From: Isoetes taiwanensis
Taxonomy: Eukaryota; Streptophyta; Lycopodiopsida; Isoetales; Isoetaceae
Direction of reading: 5' to 3'
Length of the DNA: 64,000 bases
Assembly: GCA_021234155.1 (NCBI GenBank)
Contig: JAJEKV010000223.1
Span: 186,001 to 250,000 of the forward strand
Part shown: one piece after another, positions 16,358 to 64,000 of the stretch
Position numbering within the stretch: position 1 is the stretch's first letter
Layout: every line of letters begins with the position of its first letter
Notes under the pieces: generated by a model
Told to the model about the DNA's origin: nothing
Database searches by the model: none
The model's input: only the letters and a program-made list of their open reading frames with translations
Position numbers and translations under genes: made by a program

Positions 16358-19300
16358 CTAGTCATCACCAGCCCCCTGGGCAGCCCATGTGCAAACAAAG
16401 TGCTCATAGAATCCCTTCATCACCCCGATGGTGTCAAAATCCGGGTCGTATGCATCTCCAAATTTCCTACGATGCGCAATTGCCATGAGGGAGATGTCAA
16501 AGTTGAAGTTAGCCATAATTCTTCTGATGTCAATTCCTTTGCTGCCTCTCGCCACCTCACACCTATGCCGCCATACTCCCCATAAAGCAATTGCTACCAG
16601 TGATCTTTTTAGCTTTGACATTTGTAGCATGGCTATTTCTGGCCATAGTAGCTGCTGGGGTGATAGACCAAGAATGGGCATTGCCCAATGCCAGAATTGC
16701 AATATAGCTGGGCAGAAGAACATATGGTGCAGGTCCTCCTCATCTTGGCAACCGAGTGGACAGCTAGTGTCTGCTATTATCTTTCTTTGTTTCAATCTGC
16801 TAAGAACCGGTACCCCTTCTTGCCATGTGAGCCATAGAAAATACTGTATTTTCTTTGAGGTCCATAAATTCCAGCTGCTGGTCAAGCATGGTAGAAACTG
16901 TTCTTCATTCATCAGACAATGTTGGCTCAGACAATGTTGGCTCGCTTTGAGAGGAGCTCTAGATAACATCACCTTATATATGGTTCTCACGTTATATCCT
17001 TGGTGCAGATGACCTTGCTTATCAGCTATGCTCCATCTCTCCTTTGGCCCTGTTATTCCGGACAAAACATCAACCACTTTGAGTAGTCGCTCATATAATT
17101 TTATGTCCCCTTTAGTAGGTGTTTCCAGCATTGTTTTGATGGCAGACCAAGACTTCCATTTTTGCAAATCTTCTGCCCAAATATCTTTAAGGTAGTTGAT
17201 ATCTTTCTCTCTCCATCGAGCATATAACCTAGGATGTTGGAGGGCTAGAGCTGTGCCTCCACTAGTGCTCATGTTTTTGCTCCACCATATTGAGAAAGAG
17301 CCCGCTTCCCAAGGGATGTCCTCAGAGGTAAAGTGGACTGCCACTTCTCTCCAAGCTGATAGCATGTATCTCATTAAGGGGGAAGTTCCTGCACCAATTT
17401 TCAGATCAAAGTATGCTGCATTTGGTATCAGCATTGGAGTGGCTGGTTTCCCGGTTGGATGGCATTTCTGCAAGTCATATCTTATGAAGCTCATTGCTGG
17501 CGAGTCTTCTCCTTGGAGAGCTCTCCAAACCTGTTTGGATGCAAGCACCTGCGCTTGAGTTTTAAAGTCTTTTAAACCAAGGCCTCCATCCTCTTTATTT
17601 CTGCATACTTCTGACCAAGCAATCTTGGATGCTCCACCCCATAGGAATCTTCTGACTATTGTCTCCATCTGCTTATAGACGTATTTTGGTCCCACTAAGA
17701 CTGATGAGAGGTAGATATGGGAGGCACGAAGGACTGCGTTGCATACAACAGACCTCCCTGCTACAGAGAGAGCTTTGAGAGACCATATACATATTTTCTT
17801 TTTCAGCTTGTCTAGTATTGGGTTCCATAGCCCCTTCAGTCCAAGATTGGGACTTAGTGGAAGACCGAGGAGTTTGAAGCCCTCTTGCCTAGCTAAGATC
17901 TTCATATTGAGGACCTACAGGCTTGGGTTGATGGCCTCATCAAGTGGCCATATTATAGAGCACTTGTTCTGATTCAGTTCCACCCCTGTGCAACTAGAGA
18001 ACAGCTTTAAGCATTCCAGGAATTTTGGGATGCTACCATCGTCATATCTGAAAAACATGAACGAATCATCTGCAAATTGCATTAGAGGTACCTGTTTGTT
18101 GGTTGCTTCTGGTAACACCAGCCCATTGACTGCGCCACTTTCCTGCTTCTTGCTGATCATACAGTTCAGTAGATATGCTACTATAAAAAATAGATAAGGG
18201 GCCAGGGGGCAGCCCTGTCTGACCCCACGCCTGAGAGAGAATAGAGCAGATGGCCTGCCATTAATGATTATCGAAGCGCTTGCTGATTGCAGAAGCCCTT
18301 GGATCATTTCGATTGCGCTTTGTGCCATTTGCATCTTTTGCAGGATTTTGATCAATGTGTCCCAATTTATAGTGTCAAATGCATGAGAGAAATCAAGTTT
18401 GAAAAGTACACTTTTGTTTGCTTTCCTTAGACCAATGCATACCTTCAGCGGCCACTAGGTAGTTATCATGTATACATCTTCGAGCCAAAAATGCTGTTTG
18501 CTCCTTTCCTATGATTCTGTTCAGGGCTATTTTTAATCTGTTTGCCATTAGCTTGGCAACTATCTTGTAGATGGTATTTGTAAGCGCTATTGGTCTCCAT
18601 TCATGAATGTGCTTTGGCCTGTCCACTTTTGGTACAAGTGTTATGAATCCGGTTGCCATTGCTGGATGCATCTTTTTTTGTACCCATATGTCTTTAATCA
18701 TTGCCACTAGGTCGTGACCAAGTATGTCCCAAAATTCAGCAAAGAATTCTCGTGGAAGTCCGTCTGGGCCAGGCGACTTTCCATAGCTCATAGACACTAG
18801 AGTTTTGTGAACTTCCTCTGCTGAGATCTCTTGAGAGAGGGCATTGTTTTCGGCTTCACTGAACTTTTGCACTATGTTGCTTAGGCTGTCCATGGTGATC
18901 TGGTGGTGGTTGTCTGGTATCTTTTTCTCAGCAAAGAGATCCTTATATTTCTCCACAAAGTATTTTTCAATTTGCTTTGGATCTGTGAGTAATGTCCCCT
19001 GACTATCCCATACCTCGGTTATACCATTGATGGCTAATCTGGAGGTTGCCATCCTGAAAAAGAGTTTGGAGCTCTCTTGATCCACCTCCAAATAATATTT
19101 CGTTTTGGACCTTACTGCTGCACCTTTTGCCTCGACTTCTTCGATGGCCTTGATTCTGTTCTCAAGTATCTCTTCTTGGGCGTGGAGATTCGGGTCTTGA
19201 GGATTTGTTACTAGCTGCTGCCTTACGAGCTTCATATTTCCATAAAGCTCATCTTTGGATTTCCTGAACTCTTGATTCTTTTTGGATCCCCAGCCTTTGA

Positions 19301-20151
19301 TCCATCCTTTGATATCTTTGACCTTCTGACACCACCTGTTCATACTTGGCAGGTTTGGATAGGAGGGAGAATTCTCCCTTGTTTAAGTAGCTAGTGTTAA
19401 ACTTGAAAGGTGAGGTGGATTTGGGAATTTTTTTACCTTTGGCATTGAGATGCAGAACTTGGGGGATGTGGTCCGACTGCGTATATCCAAGGTCAGCCTC
19501 CACATAGCAGCCCTCAAAAATCTGAGCTCCTTTGTTACTTACGTAGAACCTGTCTAACAAACAGTAAACTCTCTTTTCCCCTTTCTGTTTGTTGGACCAT
19601 GAATAGAGACTATTTGAAGGGGGGATCAGACTAAGCCCCAATTCATTAATCAGCCTTTCCCATTCTAATTTTTCTCTTTTTTGGAGGCTTCTATGAAGCC
19701 ATATCTTCTGGTTCCATGAATCTGTCATAGTAAGGTCCCCTGCCATAACCCAGCTAGCTAGTGGTTGGCTTTGAAGCCAGAGCCTAATTTCCTTCCATAA
19801 TTCAACTCTCTCATCTGGAGAGTTGGATGCATAAATGTTGATGATACCCCAATTTTCTTCATGATCAATTAAGACTGCTTGCCATCTACCACTATTAGAG
19901 ATGTAGTGAGACTTAGCCTGCATGTTCTTCCATAAAATGGACACCCCGCCTTTGGTACCAGATGCTTTGGCGTTGATGAAATGATAACCCCTTCCAACCC
20001 AATCACCCAAAGAGTTAGCCTGGAAATCATCTAGCCTATGCTCCTGGAGAAGTATAACATCTGCTTCCATAGCTCTTATTGCAGTTAGGATACGTGCTCT
20101 CTTAAAAGCTCCTCTAATTCCCCTTAAGTTCCATGTAACTATACGCATCAT
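16358..20151 (-). pseudogene. LINE ORF2: APE endonuclease, reverse transcriptase, zf-RVT
   Basis: The endonuclease (20,151-19,430) shows WNLRG, QEHR, LDR and SDH, but the usual GDFN motif reads GDLT, losing a catalytic Asn. RT follows with GKSPGPDG, WRPIALTN, GVRQGCPLAPYLF and the catalytic FADDS (in 18,355-17,915). The last part (17,905-16,358) has the thumb FLWG and a zf-RVT region with FLWLTWQEGVPVLSRL and CPLGCQDEEDLHHMFFCP. Frameshifts near 19,340 and 18,390 and an in-frame stop at 17,915 disable it. Otherwise the order and length fit a normal plant L1 ORF2. Confidence 0.9.
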
Positions 20152-20546
20152 GGAGGGGGGATGAGGGCATCGGGTGTTGCTGATCCATTCCCGGGGCCTC
20201 CTATTGCTGATTCTTCTGTTTGAGAGAGATTCTTGCTCCCAGAATTCTCACCTGCATTATGAGAATGGATCAGTGCTTCTTTGTATTGGGCAATTGCTTC
20301 TTTGTATTGCTTCCTCCTACGTCTCTTAGCCGCACCCAAGGTACAGGATAGAAGAACTTGCAGGGCTATTCCACTTGACAGAGGCATATCATCAGCTGGG
20401 ATTTCCCTGTTTGCTTGTAGGGTATCTACAGCCCCTGCTCTGGTATGGTTGTTAGTGGTCTGCAGCAGAGCCACTGTTGTTTCTTGCTGCCCCGGACTGC
20501 TTTGGGGATGAAGAGAGTCTGGAGCCAGAGGAACCCTAGCCCTAGT
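20148..20546 (-). pseudogene. LINE ORF1, C-terminal end only
   Basis: This open frame precedes ORF2 and overlaps its start by ATGA, the usual LINE arrangement. It reads from the truncated 5' end of the element to LIPPP-stop and contains a basic patch, KRRRRKQYKE, that could bind RNA. The upstream RRM/DUF4283 and zinc-knuckle parts are lost. Confidence 0.6.
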
Positions 20547-28432: not shown

Positions 28433-28881
28433 AGGAAATGTTTTTCCCTGATGACCCATTCCGTCAGTTCAAAAATCAGTCCAAACACAGACAATTCATC
28501 CTGGGAATGCAGTACATATTTTCTATCCTCCAGTGGGGACCATCATACAAACTTAGTGATTTCAAATTCGACCTTGTCTCTGGCCTCACCATTGCCAGCC
28601 TTGCAATTCCTCAGGTTCTTTTTCGCTCATCAACTCTCACGTCATTTTAATACCTTCCTTTTATTTTATTTTCAGTTTCTCTTTTGCTTTTGCTTGCAGG
28701 GAATTGCCTATGCAAGACTCGCAAATTTGCCACTGCTCCTTGGCCTCTGTAAGTATGCTTGTGCAAGAATGCATGTTTTATAGATTAAACGGTTTTATTT
28801 TTTTGCCCCCCCAGATTCCAACTTCTTGTCTCCACTCTTGTACGCTATTTTCGGGAGTTCCAGGAACATTGCTATTGGATG
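28433..28881 (+). pseudogene. SULTR sulfate transporter fragment (N-terminal exons)
   Basis: Exon 28,433-28,614 encodes FFPDDPFRQFKNQSKHRQFI and FDLVSGLTIASLAIPQ, the cytosolic N-terminus and first membrane segment of plant sulfate/proton symporters. Exon 28,700-28,748 encodes GIAYARLANLPLLLGL. The exon from 28,813 encodes SNFLSPLLYAIFGSSRNIAIG. Introns are bounded by GT-AG and phases match, so the reading frame continues across all three. It then passes without a stop into PPR sequence. Later membrane segments and the STAS domain are missing. Confidence 0.85.
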
Positions 28882-29311
28882 CGATATTTTTGTTGGTAAT
28901 GCTCACGTTGACATGTATAACAAACACGGATGCTTAGGAGCAGCACATGAGGTTTTTAATAGAATCTATATATGTGATCGTGCAACTTGGAATGCGATGA
29001 TTTTAGGATATGTTCAGGCAGGATATTGCTGTGAAGCATTTGATCTTTTTAAAGTAATGAATGCGAAAGCAAATGAAATAACATTTATTGCCATTCTTTG
29101 TGCTTTGTACTCAGATGGCAGCCCTTTTGAAAAAGGGAGACAAGTTCATGCGGATATTTTAGAAGCTGGATATGAAATTGATGTTTTTCTTGGAAGTACA
29201 ATTGTTGACATGTATGCCAAGGCAGGGAGCATGCGCGATGCAGAAGAAGTATTTAGGAAGCTTCCAAAACGAGTCTTAGTACTATGGAATGCACTGATAG
29301 CAAGCCTTTGA
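28882..29311 (+). pseudogene. PPR protein fragment fused to SULTR exon
   Basis: The frame begins directly after SULTR IAIG with CDIFVGNAHVDMYNK and continues with VFNRIYICDRATWNAMILGY, GRQVHADILEAGYEIDVFLG and TIVDMYAKAGSMRDAEEVF. These are P, L and S repeats of a plant organelle PPR protein, which bind RNA for editing or splicing. It stops at 29,309-29,311 after LIASL. About four repeats remain and no E/DYW tail. The open frame from the SULTR exon is unbroken, so a chimeric transcript is possible. Confidence 0.85.
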
Positions 29312-30759: not shown

Positions 30760-31764
30760 ATGGAGAAGGATGCAAGCTACAACCAGATTACCTTCCTTGG
30801 CGGTCATGCGATTCATATCTTTGACGACACAGGTTTCCAGCAATGGAAAAACGGAATGATCTTCATTCTCAAGGATGAAGGAGTTTAGGGAATTGTCAAT
30901 GGCCAAGAACCTACACCGGATGCCAAGAATATTGCTGATTTGCATGCTTGGCAGCGCCGAGATGACAAGGCAATGGCATATATCGGGCTCTCTTTAGCTG
31001 ACTCTATCCTTAATGAGTTCCAGCAAGAGAATAGCCACGATTTGTGGCATGCTCTCATTGAGAAGCATGACCAAAAGACCCATATGATTGGGCATTTGCA
31101 TGCTGAAACGGCAAATATGCGCTGGGAAGAGACCGAGAGTCTTGACCAAGACCGTATGAAGCATGTTTTCCAGCAGATTGAAGCTTTTGGAGAAGAACAT
31201 CAGATCTCACAATCGATGCAACTATTTTTCTTCCTCAGGTCATTACCTAATGCATTTTATTCTTTGTGCAGCAGCTTCATGCAAGACAAAGATATGGGCT
31301 TCCATCAAGCAATCACTTCTATTAAGGAGGAGATCATGATGAGGCTAGATGCAGGTAAAGATAATCATGCCACTCTCTTTGCAGCAGGGCATTCAAAGAC
31401 TCAATCTATCCTAAATGGGGATGAGTACGATGAGGAGGAGAAGCACATTGGCAGCAGATTATCTCTTCCTATTAAGCATGAAGTAGTGGATTTAGATCCT
31501 TCTGCTTTCTGGATATCAGACGATGCAGTAGCACCCAATAAATGGATGCCAATTTCTGATATTCCAGCACCTTCCAAGCAAGGATTAATAGATACCTCAG
31601 CCATTGAGCTAGGATATCTTAATGTGGCCTTCGTCTCCCCATTTTCAGGCAATGTAGCAACACTTCATCAAGTGGCATTCATTTCTGATAGCACTTCCAA
31701 CACTTCCAGCACCTATTATGGCACTCAACTCTTTTCTGGTTCCAGATCAAGGAGGAGACCTTAA
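30760..31764 (+). pseudogene. Copia-type gag (UBN2/DUF4219-like) with early stop
   Basis: From ATG at 30,760 the frame runs to 31,764 but codon 43 (30,886) is TAG. Residues around the N-terminus (GGHAIHIFDDTGFQQWKNGM) and the middle (HDLWHALIEKHDQKTHMIG, FLRSLPNAFYSLCSSFM) match the capsid domain of Copia gag. No CCHC knuckle is seen. The C-terminal third is acidic and probably spacer. An overlapping open frame at 31,718-32,047 has no known domain. Confidence 0.8.
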
Positions 31765-33047: not shown

Positions 33048-33362
33048 CTAAATCTGGCCATAATTTCTGCGGCTTCCTTTGCAAGCAACCCATAGACGTG
33101 GTCTGTTGGAAATGTGATGTTGGTTTGGGCTTGGCTCCATCGGGCCCTCCCTCTCGGTCCCGTCCGGTTGGGCTGTCTTTGTGGTGGTGCCTTGCTCGTG
33201 TTTCTGTTGCCCCATTGGATCTCGTTTGGCTTGTTCATGGCAGTTGGTTCCACTCCATTTGGCACCTTTGTGGCCTCGTGCCAGATTGCTGGCCTTGTCG
33301 TAGTTGGTGGCCCCTGCCAGATTGCTGGCCTTGTCGTAGTTGGTGGCCCCTGCTTTCGCCAT
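33048..33362 (-). other. open frame of unknown origin with 36-bp duplication
   Basis: A 104-residue minus-strand frame begins MAKAGATNYDKASNLAGATN; the repeated GATNYDKASNLA comes from a 36-bp direct repeat at about 33,288-33,353. It ends ITFPTDHVYGLLAKEAAEIM-like in the neighbouring frame. It is rich in Gln, Pro and basic residues, as in transposon gag or ORF1 linkers. No certain family. Confidence 0.25.
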
Positions 33363-33477
33363 AATTCATAGGCCTTGGATGGTTAGAGATGTGCTTTTAC
33401 CCTCTTTGTGTTGAGAATGGCAGCGGAACCTCTTTCACCAACCATGCTGGAGTTCCAGATGCACACAAACTCGAGAT

Positions 33478-33557
33478 GTAATGATTAATAGGGACAGTTG
33501 GGGACGTTCATATTTCATTGTCAGAGGTGAAATTCATAGATTTACGAAAGACGAACT

Positions 33558-33621
<64 letters not shown>

Positions 33622-35334
33622 AATCAGATACCGTTCTAGTCTCAACCATAAATGATGCCGACTAGGGATCGGTGAAAGTTACTTCGATGACTCCGCTAGC
33701 ACCTCATGAGAAATCAAAGTTTTTGGGTTTCAGGGGGGAGTATGGTCTGAAACTTAACGGAATTGATAGAAGGGCACCACCAGGAGCGGGCCTGCATCTT
33801 AATTTGACTCAAAATGGGGAAACTTACCAGGTCCAGATCAGGGTGTTTTTTAGTGGCTTCGGCGGGCCAGTTGGCCACACGTTCACATTTTTCAAAAAAT
33901 AGTCGGCCACACCAGAGTAGGATGCATTCTCGCCACGAGCAAAGGGTGGTGGCCAGTTTACAACACCAGATTATTAAATTCATTTCATAAGTGGCCAATG
34001 TATCATTTGCCAAGTCTTCATAACCATAGGGCGTGGCCATTTGAAAATATTATCCGCACTAAAAAACCTGCTGGGGTGGCCATTTAAACCATGGAATAAT
34101 TGTAAATTTATAGGATTGTGGCCAGGCCCTACATTGGCCAATTGTAGAGACACAATTTCACCACTTGTAGGGGCTAAATTTTGTTTGAGTTTTTAGACCT
34201 AAATTCCCAAAGTATATTTTTTAATAATATATTATTTTTTCAAATTTTGTGGATTCGATTTTGCAATTGCCCTAATCTGCTCCAGTCCCGCTCGAATCCT
34301 CTCTTCATTGACTCGCCTCAAATAAAAGGTTAGTTTTCATTCTCCAAGTACCTGCAATAAGTGTTTTTGTTAGATTCATGCTATCGAATCCAGTTGTGCT
34401 TATGTCTACAATCAAATAATCTCTTAGTAATCTTAGTTAAAGAATGAAGCACGAATTTGTTTTTTACAATTGCATCAAGATCATAGAAACTAGAGACCTA
34501 CTCTGCTCAGCAAAGAAACAGATGTTAGATTGTATTGTTCTGATATTGTCATATTTACTTCCTTATTTTGTAGAGAAATTCTTGTAACTAATTTTTATAT
34601 GTTGATACAACTATAATGGAGGGAACTTCACAGAAGAGAACAAGTGAATTCTTGAGAGATGCGGCATGCAGGACTAAACGATGGATTACGGTATCATTTG
34701 CTACCTCCACCTTCATAGATCAAATTGAAACAGTTAATGAAGGCTACACATCTGCGGACGACAGAAGACTCACTCAATGAGATAGAATCGTCAGAAGATG
34801 AATTGCATGGTGTAGACGATGCTAGAGAGAATCATATGCATCGACATAGTGATGAAGAAGTAGTCCATATGCGAGGACCTACTCGCAAAGAAACCTTATG
34901 GCGCAAAACAAGTTTGAGAAGGCTCTAAAATGATAGGTGAGCTATCGCGATCTCAATGATCAAGGGGGCTCTTCGACAAATATTGACCTAGTTAACATCT
35001 TTACATGTTAGATATACAGATGTGGCCAATTCGATTTTTTTGAGAAAAAATTAGTCCCATGGTTTCGCCATTTAAGTTACAACCCCTTGTTGTAACAATT
35101 CAAAAAAAGGCCAGGCCAAACTATGCTTAGCAATTCATCCAAGGTAAGTAGTGGCCAATATTTTACGCCCCTTCAAATATGTAGGGAGGTTAAAAAATAC
35201 CCTGGTCCAGATATAGTAAGGATTGACAGATTGAGAGCTCTTTCTTGATTCTATGCGTGGTTGTGCATGGCCGTTTTTAGTTGGTGAAGTGATTTGTCTG
35301 ATTAATTCCGATAACGAACGAGACCTCAGCCACC
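33478..35334 (+). rRNA. 18S rRNA gene fragment, split by a hAT element
   Basis: Positions 33,478-33,838 and 35,205-35,334 match the central part of plant 18S rRNA: TAATGATTAATAGGGACAG, GGTGAAATTC, GAACGAAAGTTGGGGGCTCG, GAAATCAAAGTTTTTGGGTT, and, after the insertion, AGTAAGGATTGACAGATTGA and AACGAACGAGACCTCAGCC. Only about 480 bp remain. Base changes and a small gap (TATGGTC-TGAAAC, lacking CGCAAGG) show a decayed copy outside the rDNA array. The right edge falls just after CCTCAGCC. Confidence 0.9.
33839..35204. mobile_element. hAT element, 1,366 bp, non-autonomous
   Basis: The termini CAGGGTGTTTTTTA and TAAAAAATACCCTG are inverted repeats with one mismatch. The 8-bp duplication GTCCAGAT (33,831-33,838 and 35,205-35,212) is perfect and is 18S sequence. 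Subterminal regions carry many copies of GTGGCCA or its complement, such as hAT transposases bind. Short plus-strand frames at 34,617-34,928 (MEGTSQKRTSEFLRDAA...) have no recognised domain. No hAT transposase remains. Confidence 0.92.
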
Positions 35335-47600: not shown

Positions 47601-50600
47601 TGGGTTGTGTCTTTGGAGATGGGTTAGGAATCCAGCCGCAAAAAATCAGAATTTATTTTCGTACAATGCATTAATTGCGAATTTATGAATGTCTTGCCAG
47701 CACCAAAGCCCCAAACTTCTACTTGCCACATCGGGAGGAGGACAGGGGCCCAAACTCCCGGCCCGTCGGTTCCCCTTGCTCCGTATTCTCGGTTGCGGCT
47801 TCCGGCGGTCCCAAGTGCAACGGACCAAGTCTCGGCCCCCAAAACGCAAACCCTTCTAGAAACACGGCAACCCACGGGGTTTACGTTTTGGAGGCCCTCT
47901 CCTTGTCGGATTCGAGGGGACCTTGGGGACCGTGACTTGGCGATGGAGTGGGGGTGTTGGCCTTGAGCAGGACCCTAAATCCCCGGAAGCCGCTTGCCCC
48001 GAATTTCCTCTCCCCAAGGCCACAGGGACGGACGACCTCCCCTCTCCTAGGAATCGCGATTTGACTCTCGCCAATGGACTCGAAGCGTCGGCGTTGCCAC
48101 AGGGGACCAAGTTCTGCGGCCCGGAAGACCACCGACCTCAAGAAGCGCCAAAGTAGCTCACTTCCATCACACTTCGTAGTCAATTGGCCTAGGATGTGGA
48201 TGCAGATCTTTGTCGTGGAGGGCGTGAGTGTTTTCTTTCTTTTGCAAAACCGACCTTGTAACTTGCTCCCTAGGGTAATTTCGCCCATTCGGACCCATTT
48301 GGCGGTCGATTTGCCATTCGAGCCTACCCGTGTCGAACGACAAGACAACTGCGGTTTCTACAAGGCCGACCTCCGGGGCCCCAGGGGTTTGACAAGTTCT
48401 CCTGACCGATCGGAATCTTTTGGGCCAACCCCGAAGAGGGGCCCCCGAACGGAGGATCCAACGGCCGGATAGGGGAAGGGCTCCGGAGGGTGGTCATTAG
48501 CGCGGCCGGGATTCTAGTAGGAAGGGCTGCCTGGGGAACTTTTGGATCCCCGCCTCTTGGGGTGGGACTCTCCCCTCTTGTGAGGGATCCCCGCAAGGTC
48601 ACGGCCTCGTTTGACTTGGGGAAGGGTGCCAGCCAAGGTTCCCCAAAAGCGGGCTGCCCCAAACCGCTCTAATGCTAACCCTTTGACCTAGACCTTCTCC
48701 GAAAAATTTCAAAATTGGGCTGTGCTGGAAATGGATTAGGATCCAGCTGGCAAAAATCAGAATTTATTTTCGCACAATGCATTAATTCGCGAATTTATGA
48801 ATGTCTTGCCAGCGCAAAGCCCCCGGCTTCTACTTGCCACATCGGGAGGAGGGCGGGCCCAAACTCCATCCGTCAGTTCCCCTTGCTCCATATTCCATTT
48901 TGCGGCTTCGGCCAGGTCCCAAAAGTGCAATGAGATTGTTTCCGCCCCAAAAGCATAAACCCTTCTAGAACACGGCAACCCCGGGGTTTCGTTTTGGAGG
49001 CCCTCTCCTTGTCCGGTCAGGCGGGACCTTGCGGCGTGACTTGGCGATGGGAGTGGGGGTGTTGGCCTTGCGAAGTACGGACCCTAAAATCCCCGGAATT
49101 TGCTTGCCCATTTCCCTCTCCCCAAGGCCCGGGGCCGGACGAGGCGACCTCCCTCTCCGTCCTTGCGATTTGACTCTACCCAATGGACTCGAGCGTCGGC
49201 GTTGCCACAGGGACCAAGTTCGGTGGCCAGAAGACCACGGACCTCCAAAAGCCAAAGTAGCTCACTTCCATCACACTCGTAGTCAATTGGCCTAGGATGT
49301 GGATGCGGGATCTTTGTCGTGGAGGGCGTGAGTGTTTCTTTCTTTTGCAAAACCGACCTTGTAACTTGCTCCCTAGGGTAATTTCGCCATTCCGGACGAT
49401 TTGGCGGGTCGATTTGCCATTCAGGAGCCTCCCGGTGCGAGCGACAAGACACTGCTGCGGTTTCTACAAGGCGACCTCGGGGGCCCAGCGGTTTGACAAG
49501 TTCTCCGGACCGATGCGGAATCTTTTGGGCCTTCGAAGAGGGGCCCACGAGCGGAGGATCCAGCGGGCCGGATAGGGGCAGAGACTCCGGGAGGGTGGTC
49601 ATTAGCGTCGCCCAGGGGGCCCATTTGCCGAGGAAGGGCTGCCTCGGGATAACTTTTGGATCCCGCCTCTTGGGGTCCCGGACTCTCCCCTCTTGTGAGG
49701 GATCCCTGCAAGGTCGGCCTCGTTTGACTTGGGGAAGGGTGCCGGCTCGGTTTGCTACGCAGCGGGCTGCTGCGGCCGTTCTAATGGTAACCCTTTGACC
49801 TAGACCTTCTATAGAAAATTTCGAAAATTGGGAACATTCTTGCTGGAAATGGATTAGGATTCCAGCTGGCAAAAAATCAGGGAATTTATTTTCGTACAAT
49901 GCATTAATTAAATTTATGAATGTCTTGCCACTTTAAAAGCCCCAGAGCTTCTACTTGCCACATCGGGAGGAGGACGGGCCCAAACTCCGCTCCGTCAGTT
50001 CCCCTTGCTCCGTATTCTCGGCTGCAGCTTCTCGGCCAGGTCCCAAGTGCAACAGACCAAGTCACCGACCCCCAAAGCGCCAAACCCTTCTAGAACACGG
50101 CAGCCCGCGGGGTTTACGTTTTGGAGGCCCTCTCTGTCCGGTCAGAGGCGGGACCTTGCGCCGTGACTTGACGTGGAGTGGGGGTGTTGACAGCGAGCCA
50201 CGGACCCTAAAATCCCCGGAAGCTGCTTGCCCCGAATTTCCTCTCCCCAAGGCCCTGGGGACGGACGGGCGACCTCCCCTCTCCGGAATCGCGATTTGAC
50301 TCTGCCAATGGACTCAGAACGTCGACGTTGCCCTGGGGACCAAGTTCCGTGGCCAGAAGACCACCCGACCTCCAAGAAGCGCCAAAGTAGCTCACTTCCA
50401 TCACACTCGTAGTCAATTGGCCTAGGATGTGGATGCGGGATACTGTCGTGGAGGGCGTGAGTGTTTCTTTCTTTTGCAAAACCGACCTTGTAACTTGCTC
50501 CCTAGGGTAATTTACGCCATTAGGACGATTTGGCGAGGGTCGATTTGCCATTCGGAGCCTCCCAGTGCCCCGAGCGACAAGACACTGCGGTTTCTACAAA

Positions 50601-53600
50601 AGGCCTCCGGGGCGCCCAGCGGTTTGACAAGTTCTCGGGACCGATCGGAATCTTTTGGGCCTTCGAAGAGGGGCCCCTGAGCGGAGGATCCAAGCGGCCG
50701 GATAGGGGGAGGGCTCGGGAGGGTGGTCATTAGCGTGCAACCCAGGAGGTGGCGCTGCCGGGAAGGGCTGCCTCGGGAACTTTTTGGATCCGCCTCTTGG
50801 GGTCCAGGACTCTCCCCTCTTGTGAGGGATCCCCGCAAGTCTTTGGCCTCGTTTGACTTGGGGAAGGGTGCCGGCTCGGTTGCCACCCGCGGGCTGCCCC
50901 GCCCGTTCTAATGCTAACCCTTTGACCTAGACCGAAGAAAATTTGAAAATTGGGGCGTGTGCTGGAAATGGATTAGGATTCCGCTGGCAAAAATCAGAAT
51001 TTATTTTAGGTACAATGCATTAATTGCGAATTTATGAATGTCTTACCCTTTACCGCCCCAGACTTCTACTTTGCCACATGGAGGAGGACAGGGCCCAAAC
51101 TCCGCTCCGTCAATTCCCTTGCTCAGTATTCGGCTGCGGCTTCGCCAGTCCCAAAGTGCTGAGACCAAGTCTCGGCCCCAAAGCATAAACCCTTCTAGAA
51201 CACGGCAACCCACGGGGTTTACGTTTTGGAGGCCCTCTCCTTGTCGGGTCGAGGCGGGACTTCTTGGCCGTGACTTGGCGTGGAGTGGGGGTGTTGGCCT
51301 TGAGCCACGGACCCTAAAATCCCGGGTGCTTGCCCGAATTTCCTCTCCCCAAGGCCCCTAGGGGGGCCGGGCGACCTCCCCTCTCGGGAATCGCTTGATT
51401 TGACTCTGCCAATGGACTCGAGAGCGTCGGCGTTGCCACGGGGACCAAGTTCGTGGCAGAAGACCACCGACCTCCAAGAGCGCCAAAGTAGCTCACTTCC
51501 ATCACACTCGTAGTCAATTGGCCTAGGATGTGGATGCGGGATCTTGTCGTGGAGGCGTGAGTGTTTCTTTCTTTTGCAAAACCGACCTTGTAACTTGCTC
51601 CCTAGGGTAATTTGGCCATTCCGGACGATTTGGCGAGGGTCGATTTGCCATTAGGAGCCTCCCGGTGCGAACGACAAGACAACTGCGGTTTCTACAAGGC
51701 CGACCTCGGGGATGCCCGCGGTTTGACAAGTTCTCGGGACCGATCTGGAATCTTTTGGGCCTTCGAAAAGGGGCCCTGAGCGGAGGATCAGCGGTCGGAT
51801 AGGGGAACCGGGCTCCGGAGGGTGGTCATTAAGCGTCTGCGGGAGGCGGTTGCGGGGAAGGGGCTGCCTCGGGGAACTTTTGGATCCCGCCTCTTGGGGT
51901 GGGACTCTCCCCTCTTGTGAGGGATCCACGCAAGGTCGGCCTCGTTTGACTTGGGGAAGGGTGCGGTAGCAGGCTGCCCCGACCGTTCTTCGGAAAATTT
52001 GAAAATTGGGCTGTGTGCTGGAAATGGCGGGCGGTGGCAAAAATCGAATTTATTTTTTCTAATGCATTAACCCTTTGACCTAGACCTTCTCAGAAAAGGA
52101 CAGGCCCAAACTTGGGCTGTGTTCCTTCCGGAAATGGATTAGGATTCCAGGCGGCAAAAATAGAACACGGCAATTTACGTTTGGAGGCCCTTTTTCGTAC
52201 AATGCATTAATTGGCGAATTTATGAGCGTCTTAGGGGCCGGACGGGTGGCGTGAGTTTTCCTTCTTTGCCAAACCGGCGTTGTAACTTGACCTCCCTAGG
52301 GTAATTTAAGCCAATTCTAGGATGTGGACGGGATTTGGCGTGAGTGTTCTTTCTTTCCCAAAGCAAAAACCCGACCTTGAAACTTGCTCTAGGGATTTGC
52401 CATTCGAGACCTCCCGATTTGTGCGAACCTCCCGACAAGACGACAAGACATGGAGTGGCGGTTTCTACAAGGCCGACCTCGGGGGCGGCTGGTTTGACAA
52501 GTTCTCGGGACCCGATCTGGAATCTTTTGGGCCTTCGAAGAGGGGCCCCTGAGCGGAGGATCCACTTATGCCGGATAGGGGAGCAGGCTCTCGGGAGGGT
52601 GGTCATTAAGCGTGCGGCCAGGGGCTTTTGCCCGGGAAAGAGCTGCCTCGGGAACTTTTTGGATCCCGCCTCTTGGGGTCAGGACTCTCCCCTCTTGTGA
52701 GGATCCATGCAAGGTCTGGCCTCGTTTGACTTGGGGAAGGGTGCCGGCTCGGTTGCCCACACCGGGCTGCCCCCGACCGTTTCTAATGCTAACCCTTTGA
52801 CCTAGACCTTCTCAAAAAATTTGAAAATTGGGCTGTGTGCTGGAAATGGATTAGGATTCCAGGTGGCAAAAAATCGAGAATTTATTTACCGTACATTGCA
52901 TTAATTGCGAATTTATGAATGTCTTGCCCGCCAAAGCGCCCCCGACTTCTACTTGCCACATCGGGGAGGACAGGCCCAAACTCCGCTCCGTCAGTTCCCC
53001 TTGCTCGTATTCCGGCTGCGGCTTCTCGGCCAGTCCCAAGTGCCAGCGAGACCAAGTCTCGGCCCCAAAGCATAAACCCTTCTAGAACACGGCAGCCCAC
53101 GGGGTTTCGTTTTGGAGGCCCTCTCCTTGTCGGTCCGAGGCGGGACCTTGCTTGCGTGACTTGGCGTGGAGTGGGGGTGTTGGCCTTGAGCACGGACCCT
53201 AAAATCCCCCGGGCTGCTTTCCCGCGAATTTCCTCTCCCCAAGGCCACAGGGGCCGGGCGACCTCCCCTCTCACGGAATCGCGATTTGATTTCTCGCCAA
53301 TGGACTCGTGAACGCCGTCGGCGTTGCCACAGGGGACCAAGTTCCGTGGCCAGAAGACCACCCGACCTCAAAGCGCCAAAGTAGCTCACTTCCATCACAC
53401 TTTCGTAGTCAATTGGCCTAGGATGTGGGCGGGATATCTTGTCGTGGAGGGCGTGAGTGTTTCTTTCTTTTGCAAAACCAACCTTGTAACTTGCTCCCTA
53501 GGGTAATTTCGCCATTCGGGGACGATTTGGCGGGGTCGATTTGCCATTCCTCGGGAGCCTCCCGGTGCCGAACGACAAGACAACTGCTTGCGGTTTCTAC

Positions 53601-54490
53601 AAAGCCGACCTCGGGGCGCCCAGCGGTTTGACAAGTTCTCCCGGACCCGATCACGGAGTCTTTTGGGCCTTCCAAGAGGGGGGCCTGAGCGGAGGATCAA
53701 CGGTTGGGATAGGGGAAGGGCTCGGGAGGGTGGTCATTAGCGTCTGACCCCAGGGGGGCCCCGGGGAAGGGCTGCCTCGGGAACTTTTGGATCCCGCCTC
53801 TTGGGGTGGGACTCTCCCCTCTTGTGAGGGATCCCCGCAAGGTCACGGCCTCGTTTGACTTGGGGAAGGGTGCCGGCTCGGTTGCCAACTGGGGACGCCG
53901 CCTGACCGATTCTAATGCTAACCCTTTGACCTAGACCTTCTCAGAAAATTTGAAAATTGGGCTGTGTCTTTGGAAATGGATTAGGATTCCGGTGGGCAAT
54001 TAAAAATCAGAATTTATTTTCGTACAATGCATTAATTGCGAATTTATGAATGTCTTGCATGCAACTGCAAAAGCCCCCGACTTCTACTTGCCACATCGGA
54101 GGAGGACAGCCCAAACTCCGCTCCGTCGGTTCCCCTTGCTCCGTATTCTACCGGCAAGCTTCTCGCCAGTCCCAAGTGCAGCAGACCAAGTCTCGGCCCC
54201 CAAAGCGCAAACCCTTCTAGAACACGGCACCCCCGGGGTTTTACGTTTTGGAGGCCCTCTCCTGTCGATTCGGAGGGACCTTGCGGCGTGACTTGGCGTG
54301 GAGTGGGGGTGTTGGCCCGGATCCACGGACCCTAAAATCCCCGAAGTGCTTGCCCAATTTCCTCTCCCCAAGGCCACGGGGCCGGACAGGCGACCTCCCC
54401 TCTCCGGAGCTGCGATTTGGCTCTGCCAATGGACTCAGAACGTCGACGTTGCCCTCGGGACCAAGTTCTGTGACCAGAAGACCACTCATG
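44630..54490. repeat. tandem array of ~1.1-kb units, about nine copies
   Basis: The marker AACCCTTTGACCTAGACC occurs near 45,395, 46,477, 47,562, 48,676, 49,788, 50,915, 52,068, 52,788 and 53,919, giving a period of 1,080-1,155 bp apart from one ~720-bp rearranged unit. Each unit also has CAATGCATTAATTGCGAATT, CTTCTACTTGCCACATCGG, CTAGAACACGGC and TTTGACTTGGGGAAGGGTG. The first three are a variant type containing TTAGACCAAGTATAAC; later ones carry AATTGGCCTAGGATGTGG instead. Units differ by many 1-5-nt indels. Open frames inside are GC-driven and inconsistent between units, so no genes are called. Confidence 0.9.
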
Positions 54491-54618
54491 TTAACCCAAC
54501 TAAGAAATGAGTTTTAAAGCGTCATTTGTGTACATCGCATGATGCGGCGTCAATCGTCGCATCTTGCCGTTATTTGTTATAGCTTGACGTCGTTTAAACT
54601 ATTTTTATTTTTGTTGTG

Positions 54619-55194: not shown

Positions 55195-58100
55195 CTAGGA
55201 GTCGTCATTGTTAGCATTGCCAACATTTGTATTAAAATGCTCAAGTACATCGTATTTCGTGGAATTGCTCACGGTGTAAGATCTTTGCATGAGAGCTGGT
55301 GGTCCAACCTCTTGATGCTCGTTTTCGGTGAGTTTGAATGCCTTGATCGCGGAGGGCTCTTGAGACGTTATTGACTCCTCTAGCACAACACCTTGGAATA
55401 TTGGGCGCCCCTGTAGTTTGTATGATAAACCACCATGTTGGGTCTTGTCGATCGGTAAAAAAAAAAAAATCTGGTCAAAGAAGCCGGACGTGAGATTGAT
55501 ATTGATGGTCTAAATTTTGAAGTGGATATGTGTATGTGTGTACACATTTCACGGTTATGCGGAAGGACAAGCGTCTCACTACCAGGGTACATCTTGCTAG
55601 AGTTGACAGCGAAAAAGCCACTTGTTCTATCATACTTTACTGTAGGCCTGGCCCCCCTTAATTGAAGGTCAAACCAATCGACATCGAATATGAAGGTCTT
55701 AAAATTGCCACCAACATCCACCTCCATTATAGTCTTTAACCTCCGGCCCAATCACGGGTGGCTTCCCGGCGATTCACGATCGGCAACACTTGATTGAAAC
55801 TCCATCGTGAATGATGCCATGACTCCATGATCACAAGTCTTCTGTGTATGTCAAGAGAACTCACACGATAGTGGGTCCCATGCCACCATATCGAGGGAGT
55901 AAGATATATCTTTATCAAAAGCACCATTAATGTCAATAGATACAATAACATCAAAAGAAAATACTCGATTTCGACATCAACATAATTTGTTGCAACTACC
56001 TTTTTCATGACACCTTGTGCGTATGCCCATTCCGTAGCTGTAATATACTCCCCCTTGTGATATGCATCGGTCAAAGCCTGTAGTACCCATTCTCTTTCCA
56101 TCTTGTCCGGCAAGGGTTCATATCCATCGAGTGCGGGGCTGCGTCTATTATGTCGTCTCCATTCATGCCTCTTCTCTTCCATTTCTTCCTTTGCGTTCTC
56201 ATAACGAGCAATCCATTTTGCCATTGGTGCGAATTGTAAAGAAGAAATTGATTAACCTTAATGATCATATCAAAGGAAATGACTTCTGCATACCATTGCC
56301 TTCTGCCACTACCCCCACAATCTTCTCGTCCCCTTCATCACTCCATAAGCGAGGTGCATCTGGATGTACGGCGGAAATATATTCATCATATAGAAAAGTG
56401 ACTCTTTTCAAAGCCATCCCTCGCCATACTACCTTCGGGGCGTGCTCTTTGACGCACCATATCCTTCAATACCTTCATAAACCTTTCCAAGAAAAACATC
56501 CATCGGCATATACGGTTCCATGAGCTCCACTTCCTCAATAAGATGTACCAAAAGATGGGTTTGATCGTCAAGAAAGCTCGTAGGGGAAACTCCTTCTCCA
56601 ACAAGCAACATGCCTCTGCCATTTTCACTTTCATCTCTTCAATTTCGTCTTTCGGTATAGTTTTTTTACACATCCACCTATGAGGTCCAAAACAAAAAAC
56701 TTAGCCACAAATAAAATAGACGGGGGACCACTAAATCAACATGGGTAACAACCTTATGACCTTTGATAGGGCACTTATTGCCTCCAATGGTCCCTTGTCT
56801 AAAACTCCCCTAAAGGTCAGGGGCATGAAGAATTGCATGATCCAAACACCAAATATAAGTTATGGGTTACATTTTATAGTAGTGCATATATATGTGGACT
56901 TCAATTGCTTACATGCAAGAACTTATGCCAGTCATGGGACTTTAAACAAGTCAGCTCCCCACTACTTGTGAATGCGGTTCGCAATGATTGCATGTAACCA
57001 GTTGGTGTTCTAAGGGCCCTTAAATCATCATAAATAGCTCGATGGTCAGACCTAGCAATAACCCATTTTGCCGGAGGAAGTGGTTGCCCTTCACCTCGGA
57101 TCCATGCCTCTTTCTTTGTATTACTTACCTTAAGGTCCATCCTGGCATTTGTTGTGTCTTTTTGACCAAATACATGCTTCCATAAAGAGTTTCCCACGTT
57201 CTTGAAGATATGCATCGGGTCTAAAAGGTGTTGAATCAATAGGTCGGTCCAATATGGTAGTCTATAAAAAACAGACTTCCTTTTCATATTGGCAGTAAAG
57301 ACTTCCTCCTCCGCGGCTTCCTCGCCACCACTGTATAATTCCTCATCCTCACTGTCTAGGTCGGCTACGACCTCCTCAGCTGCAGGTGCCCCCCTACGGA
57401 TTTCCCCTTGCGGATTTTCCCCCTCTTCCTTCTTATCCCAACGCTCACCCCATTCTCGTATGGTAATTCTGCTTGGTGGTTCTGTATAGTCTACAGTGCC
57501 ACTGAATTGTGCACGCTGCTTTCTGAAGGGGTGCGTGAGCGGCAAATACTTCCTAAAACCCTCGTATACTACTTTCTTCAGATGCTTAGAGTGACGGTGC
57601 TGCAACTTTTCCCCACATATCATGCAAGGGAAGTGCCCCGATGTCTTAAACCCGAACACTTTCGGCAAACCCGGGGAAAGTCATGCATAGTCCACAATAG
57701 TATACCTCTAAGATTAAAAACGTCATTTTATGGGCATCGTGAGACTGAATACTGTGTTCCACAAAGGGAGTAACTCATCCACAATTATTCTTAGGTACAC
57801 ATCTAAATTACTTGGTTTTTTCTTCCCAGGTATCAATAAAGTCATCATAATGTGCCCACTCTTCATCAACAACCATGGGGGTATGTTGTAGTTCACTATC
57901 ATCACTGGCCATGTAGACCATGCAGTCGATTGTGTACCATATGGGTTTACGCCATCGGTGGCCAGGCCCAAACGCACGTTACGTGGTTCTTTTTCAAAGT
58001 CAGGCCATGTCGCATCGACATGCTTCCAAGCTGCACTGTCGCTCGGGACTCGCATCACATCATCACTAGATGCATGTGTAGCCGTGAAGTCCATTAGGCT

Positions 58101-58870
58101 AGCCAATGTCTTGCAACGGAACATCAACTTTAACCTATAGAATAAATTATAGGCAACATATAAGTACCGAAAATAAGTGAATTTACAACTATTTGTAAGA
58201 AGTGGTGATGCATATACCTTGGGATTATTGGAAAGTGTCGAATAACCTTCTGAGGTACCGTTTTCCCTTTAGGTCATTCCTGTATCTCGGTTCATTACAT
58301 ACGAGACAATGAGTGGACTTCTCATGCTCGGCAGGGGGATAGAAGATCATACAATCATTTGGACATGCATGTATGACTTTATAACCAAGGCGGTCGCTTG
58401 AATCATTTTCTTAACTTGAGATCCGCCGGTAGGCATATTGTTCTTCTCTGAAAGGATCTTCTCGTGCAATAACCTCGCGATCTAAGAGTGGTAAGATAAA
58501 AGATGGAGATGGTGGTAAGATAGAAAGACTTGATAAGTATGTCACCTCAATAGAGCAGAGACACTTGCATTGCTCCACTTGAACTTGGTTTGGAGATTGA
58601 GAATTAGCGAGCCGCGCCGAAAAGCGAGAGGTTCGGGGACGCAGAAATAATCTGCGTTTCTGCTTCGATAACAATAGGGTCATCGTCAGTACGACCAATC
58701 CTCGAAGGGTATCCCACATCTTCTACCATATCCTCTCCACCACCATCCTCGACATCATCTAAATCAATATCAGGTAATTCTTGAAGAGCGTGCAACATAT
58801 CGAGCATCGGCACCGTCACGAAAAGACTTCGTTCTCGGGTTCGTCAATAGTTTCATCCTCTTCATATTGA
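55195..58870 (-). pseudogene. CACTA TNPD transposase (Transposase_21, DUF4218, DUF4216)
   Basis: Minus-strand order: acidic segment (58,819-58,604); CxxC-type block with THCLVCNEPRYRNDLKGK (about 58,330-58,260); Transposase_21 with NVRLGLATDGVNPYG, STAWSTWPVMIVNYNIPPWL, LLIPGKKKP, LLWTMHDFP, GHFPCMICGEKL (58,127-57,540) and DLLIQHLLDPMHIFKNVGNS; DUF4218 (56,673-56,390, ARPEGSMA); coiled segment (56,224-56,050); DUF4216 (55,751-55,380, FDVDWFD, ARPTVKYDRTSGFFAVN) and a C-terminus to 55,195. Several frameshifts (for example near 57,715 and 56,560) and stops break it, so it is probably inactive. It would cut and paste a CACTA element. Confidence 0.9.
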
Positions 58871-59133
58871 TCGTATGCAATATCTTCATATTGGTGCGCT
58901 CTGGCTTGAAATTCACGACGATAGGTTTCCCTTTGCCTGTAACTTAGAACTAATGGATCGGGATGGAGACCGCTCTGCGAATGAGTTCATTAAGCAGAGT
59001 AGCGTATTAACCATCATGTCAAATAATGTAATAAGTATAAAATACATACAACCATTTGTATAGACTCACGAATGACAAAAAACATATTAAAAAAAAAAAA
59101 CCTCTTTATTCCTTTTTTTTTAGTACAACAATA

Positions 59134-60187
59134 CTATTGTTCCATCTCAAATGGGAGAGGTCTATCATAGCGATAGTTGATGAATAACTCATCTCCAATG
59201 TTTATGCTTTTAATAGCACACACCATGATATATCTGCTTTTTACAGATCTTGTAAAAAAATCTTCCTCCCCTCCTTGACACTCTAAAAATTCACAATTGC
59301 ATCGCTCACGGTTGTCAATAGAACTGTTGATGAACCCTGCAATATTGCCATGAACCCCTGGCCGACCATCAATAAACTTCAACTCCTCATCACATGCCCC
59401 CCGACTATCGGCAGAAACATTGGAATTCATTCCATAAATCCTCATACGCCAAGCATATTTAGTCAAAGTTTGCCAAGTTTTCCAATCGTACTCGGGACCT
59501 GCATATGGCATTAATGGAATGTGGGTATCTCGCTCCACTTCTATACGCGTGCCGGAGATAAGGCCGAATCCAGCTTCTGGACAAATGCGGCTCCGCATAA
59601 TGATGTATCTTCTTCCCCAATAAGCAAATTCTTGATCCATAGGGATAGGTAAGTCTACTGGCCACAAGCCAAATGTCTTGCGGTGCCTAACAAAGGGTCG
59701 GACTAATCTTTGCAATTCTTCAGGAATTTCACGCTCGGGCAGTGAGGCCAAGCGTTCTTGGGAAATGTGCGACACATGCAATGTTCTCATGATTGTAGCC
59801 CTTCGTGTTCTTTCACGCAGGGGAACACTCAGCGTTGAGCGGCACCCATCCACATTATTGATGAATCGGGTTACTGCTTCAGTTTCATATGCCTCTATGG
59901 ACAACATTAAACCAAAATCCACATCTAGTTTGATGGAGACATCAGCATCATCTACCTACATATTTAGATATCATAAACATCTTGAATATATACTTAAACT
60001 GGGAGAGATACTCTTAAAAAAAAAAAAAAACAAATAATAATTGTATACCAACCTGATATCCATGACGAGCATCAGATCTGGTGGGTTGTTCAAATGTACC
60101 AAATCTTATCAGATGGTCTTCAACAACCGTTCTAAGTCGTCTCTTCAGCCCCATACATCTTTTACAATCGCAAACTATTTTGTCCCT
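59134..60187 (-). CDS. Transpos_assoc-like + SET domain protein of the CACTA region
   Basis: Two minus-strand exons, 60,187-60,053 and 59,955-59,134, join in frame across a GT-AG intron. Exon 1 (5' end missing) reads DKIVCDCKRCMGLKRRLRTV, then VEDHLIRFG and ARHGYQ. This fits the C-x-C-x2-C...V-x2-HL...G...HG pattern of the Transpos_assoc domain at the N-terminus of CACTA transposases. Exon 2 is open over 273 codons to a stop and holds a SET domain: GFGLIS (residues 118-123 from the first Met of exon 2), GNIAGFINSSIDNRERCNCEF (192-212, the NHS..N region) and GDELFINY (243-250). SET domains transfer methyl groups to lysine. The canonical NHS reads FINSS, so activity is uncertain. It lies 5' of TNPD on the same strand. 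Confidence 0.7.
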
Positions 60188-60690
60188 CTGCCAATTACAA
60201 AAGGTAAGTACTATATACTGCACAATAGCCCGGGGGTTTCACCTAGGCATATGGGGATACCACATCTGCGTGCAAGGGGTCCAGAGAAAACCCCTGTATA
60301 CGACTTTTTGGAGGTGGAAAACCCCTACATACGTAAATAGGAAAAGCCAGTTTCCAAGCCCCTTTCCGTAGATGTACTTTCGGACTATCCTAATTTTTAC
60401 ATACCCCTACCCGATCTTGTACTTGAGTTTGTGCTTGTGCACCCTACCCCTATGTACAGAATAAATAAAATTTCAAAATGTTTTTAATTGACATTTCTCG
60501 CATCTCGGTCTCGCATTTCCCTGGGGTTCTTACATGCATGCGACATTACAAGGGTAATTCTAAGGAGCCTTTGCAAATTATGAACACGTATTTAGGAGCC
60601 CTTGCAAAGACAATACCGGGACAATACGGGAACAATACATGCTAAGGACAATACATCATGGTAAGATCAATACCTCAAATTATACATCTA
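60188..60690. other. no feature seen
   Basis: Upstream of the SET gene, intron-like sequence to about 60,205, then unrelated DNA with CCCCTA-rich words. No CACTA terminus is visible, so the 5' end of this element is lost or interrupted here. Confidence 0.4.
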
Positions 60691-63600
60691 CTAGAAAAAG
60701 TGCCCAGCGTTGCTGGGCTATTCGTCCTGCATAAGTTTACAAACTAATAAAGACTATTGGTGGATTTACATTGCATACTTAAAAGCAAAAAATTGTATAA
60801 GTGCAATATTCAATGCTTTTCTACGATGTTCTAATGCACAAAGGCAATTACGCGTTTAACAAGCAAAAAAAAGCTAGATTTACCATTGACAATGCAAAAC
60901 ATGCTATTCAATGCAAGTACAAAGGCCTTGCACAAATCTTTTTTTAGCTACGTTTGAAGTATAGACAACAGTTGACCCCTTTCTTGACATAGAAGCATTA
61001 TTATGAACTTTTAACCTCTCCCACTCACAACACCCTTAATGTTCACATACTAAATAGTCTAAAAAATACCAATTGACTTTGCTCCGCTAGATAGTCTTGA
61101 AGTGTGCATTGATACCATGACTTTGCACCATAAGAACTTGTGATGGCTGCATTACTGAATATTACATACATAACTCCTTATGTGTACATTTTGTCTTCAT
61201 ATGGATTGTTATTATCACTATCTTATTTGCCTAGGATAGACACACAAGAGCCTGTATAGGCCTACATCCCCTATGTCACTAATCCCTCAATTCCTCTATC
61301 ATCCACGAGGATGCCTTTGAATAAAATATCTGGTCTATTTGTTGGTATATGTGCCTTGTACCTCACCAGGATGGAAGCTTCAATGTTACCATGTTCTAGA
61401 AATAAAAAACCTATATGTGATAAAGAAGTTAAGGCGTGCTTCAAGATGAATAGAAATGACGAGGTCAAAATTCCTTATTAGCTTACCTTGACAAAAGAAG
61501 TGCCCATGCTTATCCTGGCCACTACCTTGTACTTGACGTTCATATCTTAAGAACAATACTTTGGCACTGATTGAGATGGCATCGGAATTCATTATATTAT
61601 ACTGTCCTTTCCAATTTGTGCTTCTCTCAACATAAATTGCCCTCTGCCATTGGGAATTATATTGCAAGGCAACGTCAAAGGCCTTTTAGTCCATGTGCCA
61701 TTGATCTCATTATCATCTATAACTATGCCCTCAAACACATCGGTTATATTCTCTGAGTTATACAGTTTACTGAATTTTATGTTATAAGCACATCCAATTA
61801 TCAAATTCCCCTCCCATCCATATAGCAAAACATCCGAATGCCATGAAGGGAACACTTTTGTCAAACTATGCAATTAAATGGATTGCTTTTGTATGTTGTT
61901 GGTTCTGCAATCAAATCTTCTGCTACCAAACAGTCATTCAAATTTCTGAAAAACTGCAAAGAATTGGAAGGCAAGTGCCATCGACGCAGCCACTGCACAT
62001 TTTGGCATGATTGCATAGCTTCGTCACCAACCTCTGCTCATAAAAGGACGTTCACATGCTCCCCATATCGATATGTATCTTCGACTATGGACCTGAAGAT
62101 AGATTTTCTGGCTGAATTTGTTGCACCATCATTATCTTGTGCGCACGAGTCATTCATGGTCAAAAAATTGTTAGAAATATTATCCTTTCTATTCCATGTC
62201 TCCATACCAGCATGATAGCCTCTAACATGGAAAACTGACCCAGGTTTATAGTGCTCATTGCACATATTCAATGCATCATTTCCTGTTTCCTGCACCCCAT
62301 CACATTTATCAGATAACAGGTACAAATTTAACAGGAAGATTTACACCATTGTTGCATCACAAAGATTTACTCCAAAATTTTAGCCATGCAGCCAATAAAT
62401 TCAAAAATAGAGCATACTACAGATAAAAAAGATTGCGAAAATCTTGCCGTAGGTTTTGCTTTTTTTGGTAGAGTTGAAAACAATCATTTAATAACGTCAC
62501 TTTTTCTATATGGAAGTTTTCCATAGTAGTTCTTTCATATTAGAAGGCTCTGAATGGATTATGATCATCTTTCTTGGCAAGGCAGCAACAAATGTAAGTT
62601 ACCCAGCCTACCCTAAACTAACTTATACAGTAAGAGGGCTCTGGAAGAAAGAAGCAAGCAGAATAGAAAAAGCAAGAAAGTAAACAAAAGAAATTGGAAT
62701 GCAAAGATGAGACGAACTTGAAATACCTCAAAATGCAGCCACCATCTCCATGACTTAGAAAGAGAACTTGAAGGTTCCAAATTCGAAAAAGTGTCTCCAT
62801 GCAACTGTAGCTGTGCAGGCCATGCAAAAATCAAATCTCCCAGCATATCCGCATTGTATAATTCTCCCCTTAGGTTTCTTCTTAACTTTAGATCATCAAA
62901 TGTGCAGAGCAAACTTAGAAAAACTTAGCGTAATCATGCCATGATTTACAATAGAGATCCTGTGTACCTGTTTGATCAAGCAAAACACCACGCTAGTTTT
63001 GTCACTCCCATTCCCCCTCAAATGTGGGAAAAACGTACTCCAAAATGACTGCAGACAGATCTCCGGCTGTGCCTCAATCCTTCTCCGTAGTAGAAACAGA
63101 CTGCCACTATAGCCACAATCTCAAAAATCGATACACCCTAAAATAGCAAAAATAGAAAACGCACCCTAAACCCAGGAAGAAGGGGATCTTGTCAGGCCCT
63201 TTTGTTTCCCCATTAGCCTACAGGGTTTTTAGACAGTCAACTACACCAAACAAACTAAAAAACTACAAACGAAGCATTAGGAAAGGCACAACACTTATAC
63301 CACAATAATAAGTAGTTAACACTCGTGCATCAGAAGCAACCGATCGTATTTTCTCTGCCATTGTTCGTATAGTCTCATACTGCTCCAAACTCAAAGGCTA
63401 AAAAGATAACCACCAATCAGAGGACTTGTATGTAACAGATAATCTCTTCTAAAGCTAAAGATGCAAACTAATCTGTAAAGAACCAAATCTTCGTAGTTGA
63501 TGGCCAGCTCTAATATTTCTCGTGTTTCTCTTCTCACCTCATCCCATAGGTAAAAATAAGCCTTCTTCCAATGAAATTTCGTCTTTAATATTTCTAGTTC

Positions 63601-64000
63601 TTTGCGTGCAACATCTTCCCCTGTGCTTGTACTGTGATATTCCGCCAAATCAAAACTTAGAAGATATGTATAAATGCAGAAAGCAACACTCCAAATGTTT
63701 ACGCCCTTAAGCACCTGGTCGAAACTGGTGCATATGGAACAGCATATGCAGCTAGTCTTGGATCAGAATAGCTTCAGCCTTTGGATGATCAGCTGCTCAA
63801 CAAGCGACGATGCGTGGAAACCAAAAAGAAAAGCAGACAAGCTTTAACCTGAGCTACAACACTTCGATGCATAACCTATCCACAGATATTTAAATAAGAA
63901 TCAACACAGGTATAAAATACCAAGCCAAGGACAAGTATATGTCAAGACGCGCATGCTATCACCCCATCTGCAAAAGTATGGGCTTATCCTGTATTGCAGG
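60691..64000 (-). mobile_element. Helitron B, 3' end present, 5' end outside window
   Basis: On the minus strand a 7-bp stem hairpin (60,718-60,702, GCCCAGC-AAC-GCTGGGC) is followed by 7 nt, CTAG (60,694-60,691) and host T. This matches the Helitron A terminus in layout, with the spacer AC(G)T..T and flanks alike. Exon-like pieces on the minus strand follow to the window edge, in the Helitron's own orientation. No Rep-helicase is seen. The extent to 64,000 is an assumption. Confidence 0.55.
61271..63770 (-). pseudogene. unidentified multi-exon gene or fragment
   Basis: Minus-strand exon-like pieces include 63,740-63,391 (FDQVLKGVNIWSVAFCIYTY, YLWDEVRRETREILELA), 62,912-62,730 (ADMLGDLIFAWPAQLQLHG, SKSWRWWLHFE before GTATTT), 62,310-62,040 (EHYKPGSVFHVRGYHAGMET), 61,873-61,592 (FPSWHSDVLLYGWEGNLIIG, VFEGIVIDDNEINGTW) and 61,468-61,271 (ILFKGILVDDRGIEG). 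The last two share an F-x-GI-x-VDD-x-x-I-x-G pattern, perhaps repeats. I do not recognise the family. Introns are implied, and stops occur between pieces. Confidence 0.4.

Follow-up and report, generated by a model that had tools for sequence, protein, structure and literature searches.

DNA transposons that carry SET genes have already been reported from oomycetes, in which HarbingerS and MuDR elements of Phytophthora carry SET methyltransferase genes (PMC12730594); SETMAR (Metnase) joins a SET domain to a transposase-derived part (PMC8616336); plant Vandal/MULE elements carry Ulp1 and VANC as anti-silencing cargo (PMC13317346); and plant mobile domains have been captured by MULEs (PMC5418596). 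Among the papers listed by our literature searches there was no plant CACTA element with a SET gene. In the 64,000-nucleotide stretch of DNA analysed here (the window), a SET-domain reading frame and half of a Transpos_assoc domain lie on the same strand as, and 5' of, the broken remains of a CACTA-type transposase gene, TNPD. We read this locus, with a probability of roughly 0.6, as a decayed CACTA (EnSpm) transposon whose cargo, a SET gene, sits within intron 1 of TNPD. The reading starts from two exons, the intron proposed between them and a possible transcript end:

60053..60187, minus strand: exon 1, the C-terminal half of Transpos_assoc (PF13963), 45 codons ending in phase 0
59956..60052, minus strand: proposed intron separating exon 1 from the SET exon, GT...AG and in frame, predicted from sequence
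59134..59955, minus strand: SET exon, 273 codons plus a TAG stop, with the SET match at residues 190-261
59105..59110, minus strand: possible polyadenylation signal AATAAA, 23 nt past the SET stop codon

The SET domain that a first-pass annotation had claimed from the sequence motifs was borne out by homology. The frame at 59955-59134 (minus strand) matched the Pfam SET profile PF00856 with an E value of 4.3e-6 and 27.5 bits, above the curated cut-off of 22.4; the match spans positions 46-104 of the 105 in the profile, leaving the N-terminal part of the profile unmatched. A single-sequence protein search with the window SET protein returned three relatives at 33-37% identity (E values from 6.1e-16 to 5.0e-11). 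Because an open frame of 273 codons is by itself unusual, yet possible by chance (simulating 300 sequences of 6 kb gave longest open runs with a median of 125, a 95th percentile of 176 and a maximum of 295 codons), it is this homology that decides the reality of the frame. When the two exons were joined, SET and Transpos_assoc were the only domains that Pfam reported at E<=1. The AATAAA downstream of the stop is the sole one on the minus strand within 58501-60700, and its position is consistent with a transcript ending there.

The window protein holds the GxG motif (GFGL), the Asn of the GFIN motif and the final Tyr (GDELFINY). In canonical SET enzymes, this Asn is followed by His (the NHSC motif). 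In the window protein it is followed by Ser, and in a 79-row alignment, made up of the window protein and 78 related rows, the same position is Ser in 63 of the related rows, Asn in 12 and another residue in 3. The Asn itself is kept in 76 of these 78 rows and the final Tyr in 63, the remainder being 12 gaps and 3 other residues. Because Ser replaces the usual His in the window protein and in most of its relatives, activity is uncertain, and since the Asn-His pair is lacking we name the product a SET-domain protein rather than a methyltransferase. With its core motif altered, the protein may instead be an inactive binder. An AlphaFold2 model of the window protein was poor (mean pLDDT 53.3, pTM 0.41), and a PDB search with the single window sequence matched no SET structure.

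Searching with an alignment built from the three relatives brought out a much larger family: of 1301 candidates, 563 proteins reached E<=0.01, and the top 120 of these are described here. All 120 come from jgi, ena or lgn sources and none from ncbi, uniref or nr, so that the family is without an annotated NCBI, UniRef or nr protein among the best 120 of its 563 matches; with a tnp2 query in the same database, 21 of 59 matches were plant records from ncbi, uniref or nr sources. Contigs longer than 10 kb hold 50 of these best 120 relatives. We aligned the window protein with 52 of the 120; PF00856 was matched by 53 of the 53 sequences, and the window protein shares 28-42% identity with the other 52. 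The many distinct clusters within the family suggest a multi-copy gene, perhaps a mobile one. The family to which the window protein belongs is thus large, multi-copy and unnamed, and its core motif is altered (Asn-Ser versus Asn-His).

Several other profile matches were set aside. Matches to PRDM2_PR in 38 of the 53 aligned members (best 2.2e-5) were regarded as general SET similarity, as were NCBIfam matches to LegAS4 (AnkI), cut-off 550, by the window protein (E 0.019, 13.7 bits) and by the relative P0001 (E 0.00038, 19.3 bits). A beta-lactamase match of another relative, P0018, was regarded as chance.

For exon 1, the first-pass annotation had proposed a Transpos_assoc domain, and here the outcome was mixed. 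Over a 29-residue stretch, exon 1 shares 14 identities (48%) with P0159, a tnp2 protein from Persea in which a complete Transpos_assoc domain (PF13963) occupies residues 3-76 and is followed by PF02992. However, exon 1 carries just half of this domain: within a 52-residue piece, it matched positions 31-65 of 74 with an E value of 7.7e-6 and 26.4 bits, below the Pfam cut-off of 27.7, and within the joined 324 residues the score fell to 21.0 bits. Neither a second Transpos_assoc domain nor the N-terminal half was found in the window by tblastn with P0159 as the single query. Exon 1 runs from a CAG acceptor (60190-60188) to a GT donor, and there is no in-frame Met from the upstream stop to the exon. 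An exon upstream of exon 1 must lie outside or have been lost. Separately, on the plus strand at 60687-60718, upstream of exon 1, we noted TCTACTAGAAAAAGTGCCCAGCGTTGCTGGGC with an A before it. It resembles the pattern of a Helitron 5' end, and its first 23 bases occur once in the window; a Helitron insertion upstream of exon 1, if real, may explain the absent 5' part.

On the other side of the SET exon lie the pieces of TNPD:

58819..58974, minus strand: possible TNPD exon, following a CAG acceptor, able to continue exon 1 in phase, placed by eye without a homology match
57723..58401, minus strand: first pieces of the TNPD catalytic part, with Transposase_21 at 1e-42 in 58268-57723 (Pfam) and tblastn matches
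56904..57715, minus strand: TNPD catalytic part, continued, with the C-terminal part of Transposase_21 at 2.1e-10 in 57680-56904 (Pfam) and tblastn matches
56389..56700, minus strand: DUF4218 of TNPD, 1.6e-10 and 41.3 bits (Pfam)
55383..55751, minus strand: DUF4216-like piece, E 0.029 and 15.4 bits, below the Pfam cut-off of 30.6

Two further first-pass claims, that the SET frame lies on the same strand as and 5' of TNPD and that it sits inside a CACTA-type gene set, agree with these matches. We assign the element to CACTA/EnSpm by its tnp2-type transposase (PF02992) together with DUF4218. In tblastn, the tnp2 homology is split over three frames (58401-58231, 58270-58208 and 58169-57750), for which introns are not an obvious cause throughout, and the frame from 58974 runs into a TGA at 58818-58816. 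TNPD is therefore broken, whereas the SET frame stays open.

The ends of the element are less clear. An ungapped search for CACT...AGTG terminal inverted repeats, comparing 30000-59000 with 60100-64000, gave no convincing pair, no 3-bp target-site duplication was found, and short repeats shared near exon 1 were likewise looked for without a convincing result. An end of the element may lie outside the window, or may have decayed. With neither terminal inverted repeats nor a target-site duplication found, co-transposition of the SET exon with the element is putative. Repeated motifs at 60270-60680 were considered as subterminal repeats and rejected, there being no matching set at the other end. 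Adjoining the 3' side of the element, GC-rich units about 1.1 kb apart occupy 48000-54500, perhaps from 45400, the extent over 45.4-48 kb being judged from ORFs.

Exon 1 ends in phase 0, so that it could be read on into the SET exon (at 59955) as well as into the candidate TNPD exon (at 58974). Phases match by chance in one case out of three, and what they show is that both joins are possible. The first-pass annotation had joined exon 1 and the SET exon as an in-frame two-exon gene. Its GT-AG intron does keep the frame, and an alternative junction at 60049/59951 gives identical residues around the join; the gene itself fared less well, with no start codon and with an exon 1 that is most simply TNPD's, because it holds the only Transpos_assoc match found (with one query) and takes the position of a tnp2 N-terminal domain.

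We consider it unlikely, for this reason among others, that the locus holds a true fusion, that is, a dedicated gene of two or more exons, separate from TNPD, whose Transpos_assoc-SET product would find element or host DNA by its transposase domain and modify chromatin there by its SET domain. In its favour are a GT-AG junction that keeps the frame, with either of two splice pairs yielding the same residues, the AATAAA after the SET stop, and a SET frame that is open where TNPD is broken. However, if exon 1 were used by SET alone, TNPD would be left without a Transpos_assoc domain of its own, and the N-terminal half of that domain is missing along with the start codon. Moreover, PF13963 was detected by Pfam in 0 of the 53 scanned family members, and it was found in none of the best 120 of the 563 relatives, although single-exon gene calls could mask a Transpos_assoc-SET pairing.

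It is likewise doubtful that the SET gene, itself a mobile or duplicated copy, came by chance to lie within or next to an old CACTA element in which it plays no part, since, for all that the SET family is numerous (563 proteins) and without a detected tnp2 link, that no terminal inverted repeats were found and that transposon remains abound in the window, the SET exon lies on the same strand as, and between, two parts of TNPD, with compatible phases. Other remains in the window are the following, together with an rRNA fragment; the LINE, PPR and copia pieces among them mark the window as plant-like:

16358-20247, minus strand: LINE remains, with RVT_1 and zf-RVT matches
28784-29311 and 30889-31764, plus strand: a piece of a PPR gene and a copia gag
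33296-33728, plus strand: fragment of a eukaryotic SSU rRNA, 187.7 bits, adjoining 36-bp tandem repeats

We looked for SET beside tnp2 in the relatives by comparing the sizes of the contigs that hold the 120 listed SET relatives with those of 54 tnp2 contigs. A single value was common to both, 607 bases, which belonged to ENA fragments in each case and was regarded as chance. The comparison is a weak one, as the tnp2 matches (59) and the SET matches (120 listed of 563) possibly come from different plants. A tblastn search of viral and prokaryotic contig collections returned no relatives of the locus, which says little about plants.

We thus return to a SET gene carried as cargo within TNPD. 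Support for this reading comes from the SET profile match, the large related family, the motifs that are kept and the AATAAA after the SET stop, and from the fact that the sole Transpos_assoc match found with our one query lies 5' of TNPD on its strand. The SET gene is probably cargo, as read from one copy of the element. In such an arrangement, exon 1 would serve TNPD in the usual way, while the SET exon, which brings its own stop and has the AATAAA close by, would close the TNPD transcript as an alternative last exon and give a Transpos_assoc-SET protein. Alternatively, the SET exon could be a separate gene that starts at an internal Met; the first Met in the exon, at residue 17, could serve as an independent start. 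In En/Spm, TNPA and TNPD are produced by alternative splicing. If expressed, the SET product would be predicted to methylate a lysine of some chromatin protein, histone or other, close to the DNA of the element, and this methylation could in turn change the silencing of the element.

A more general form of this idea is tentative, and we hold it to be rather improbable: that there is a plant CACTA family in which alternative splicing after the first exon of TNPD would yield a transposase and a SET methyltransferase that share a DNA-targeting Transpos_assoc domain, so that the element would mark its own chromatin where its transposase binds, using a SET domain with Asn-Ser that is present in many copies. 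Were the SET exon a fixed part of the element, this would be a plant transposon with its own histone-modifying enzyme in its transposase gene, and it would become testable whether elements write chromatin marks, beyond erasing them, to survive in a host.

Among SET proteins of known structure, the nearest to the family are the plant H3K27 monomethyltransferases ATXR5 and ATXR6, which were the best PDB matches of the family profile (PDB 5vbc and 4o30, E values of 8.1e-4 and 8.5e-4) and share with it an NIA-F-I stretch and the final Tyr. However, this match covers about 54 profile positions and is slightly ahead of that to KMT2A (3.6e-3). Because it is limited to so few positions, we do not assign the family to ATXR5/6. 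ATXR5 and ATXR6 also carry a PHD domain beside SET, whereas Pfam found no PHD domain in the window protein.

The comparison with SETMAR that was made in the first-pass annotation is apt as an analogy, and as that alone: in SETMAR a host SET gene acquired a mariner transposase, whereas here a SET exon lies inside a transposon, and the two show no homology as far as tested. VANC and KIU (Ulp1) of Vandal MULEs are reported to be transposon cargo acting on the silencing of their own family (PMC13317346), which makes them comparable in how they work only; they belong to another superfamily and are other proteins, and a silencing effect of the SET gene here is putative. The HarbingerS and MuDR elements of Phytophthora differ from this element in that the transposase here is of the tnp2 (CACTA) and not the Harbinger type, that the host here is plant-like, and that the SET exon here is placed within the TNPD gene and is not a known separate ORF. 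The likeness, drawn from description and not from SET sequence, is that in both a cut-and-paste transposon is accompanied by a SET gene, which in the Phytophthora elements is described as a histone methyltransferase gene (PMC12730594).
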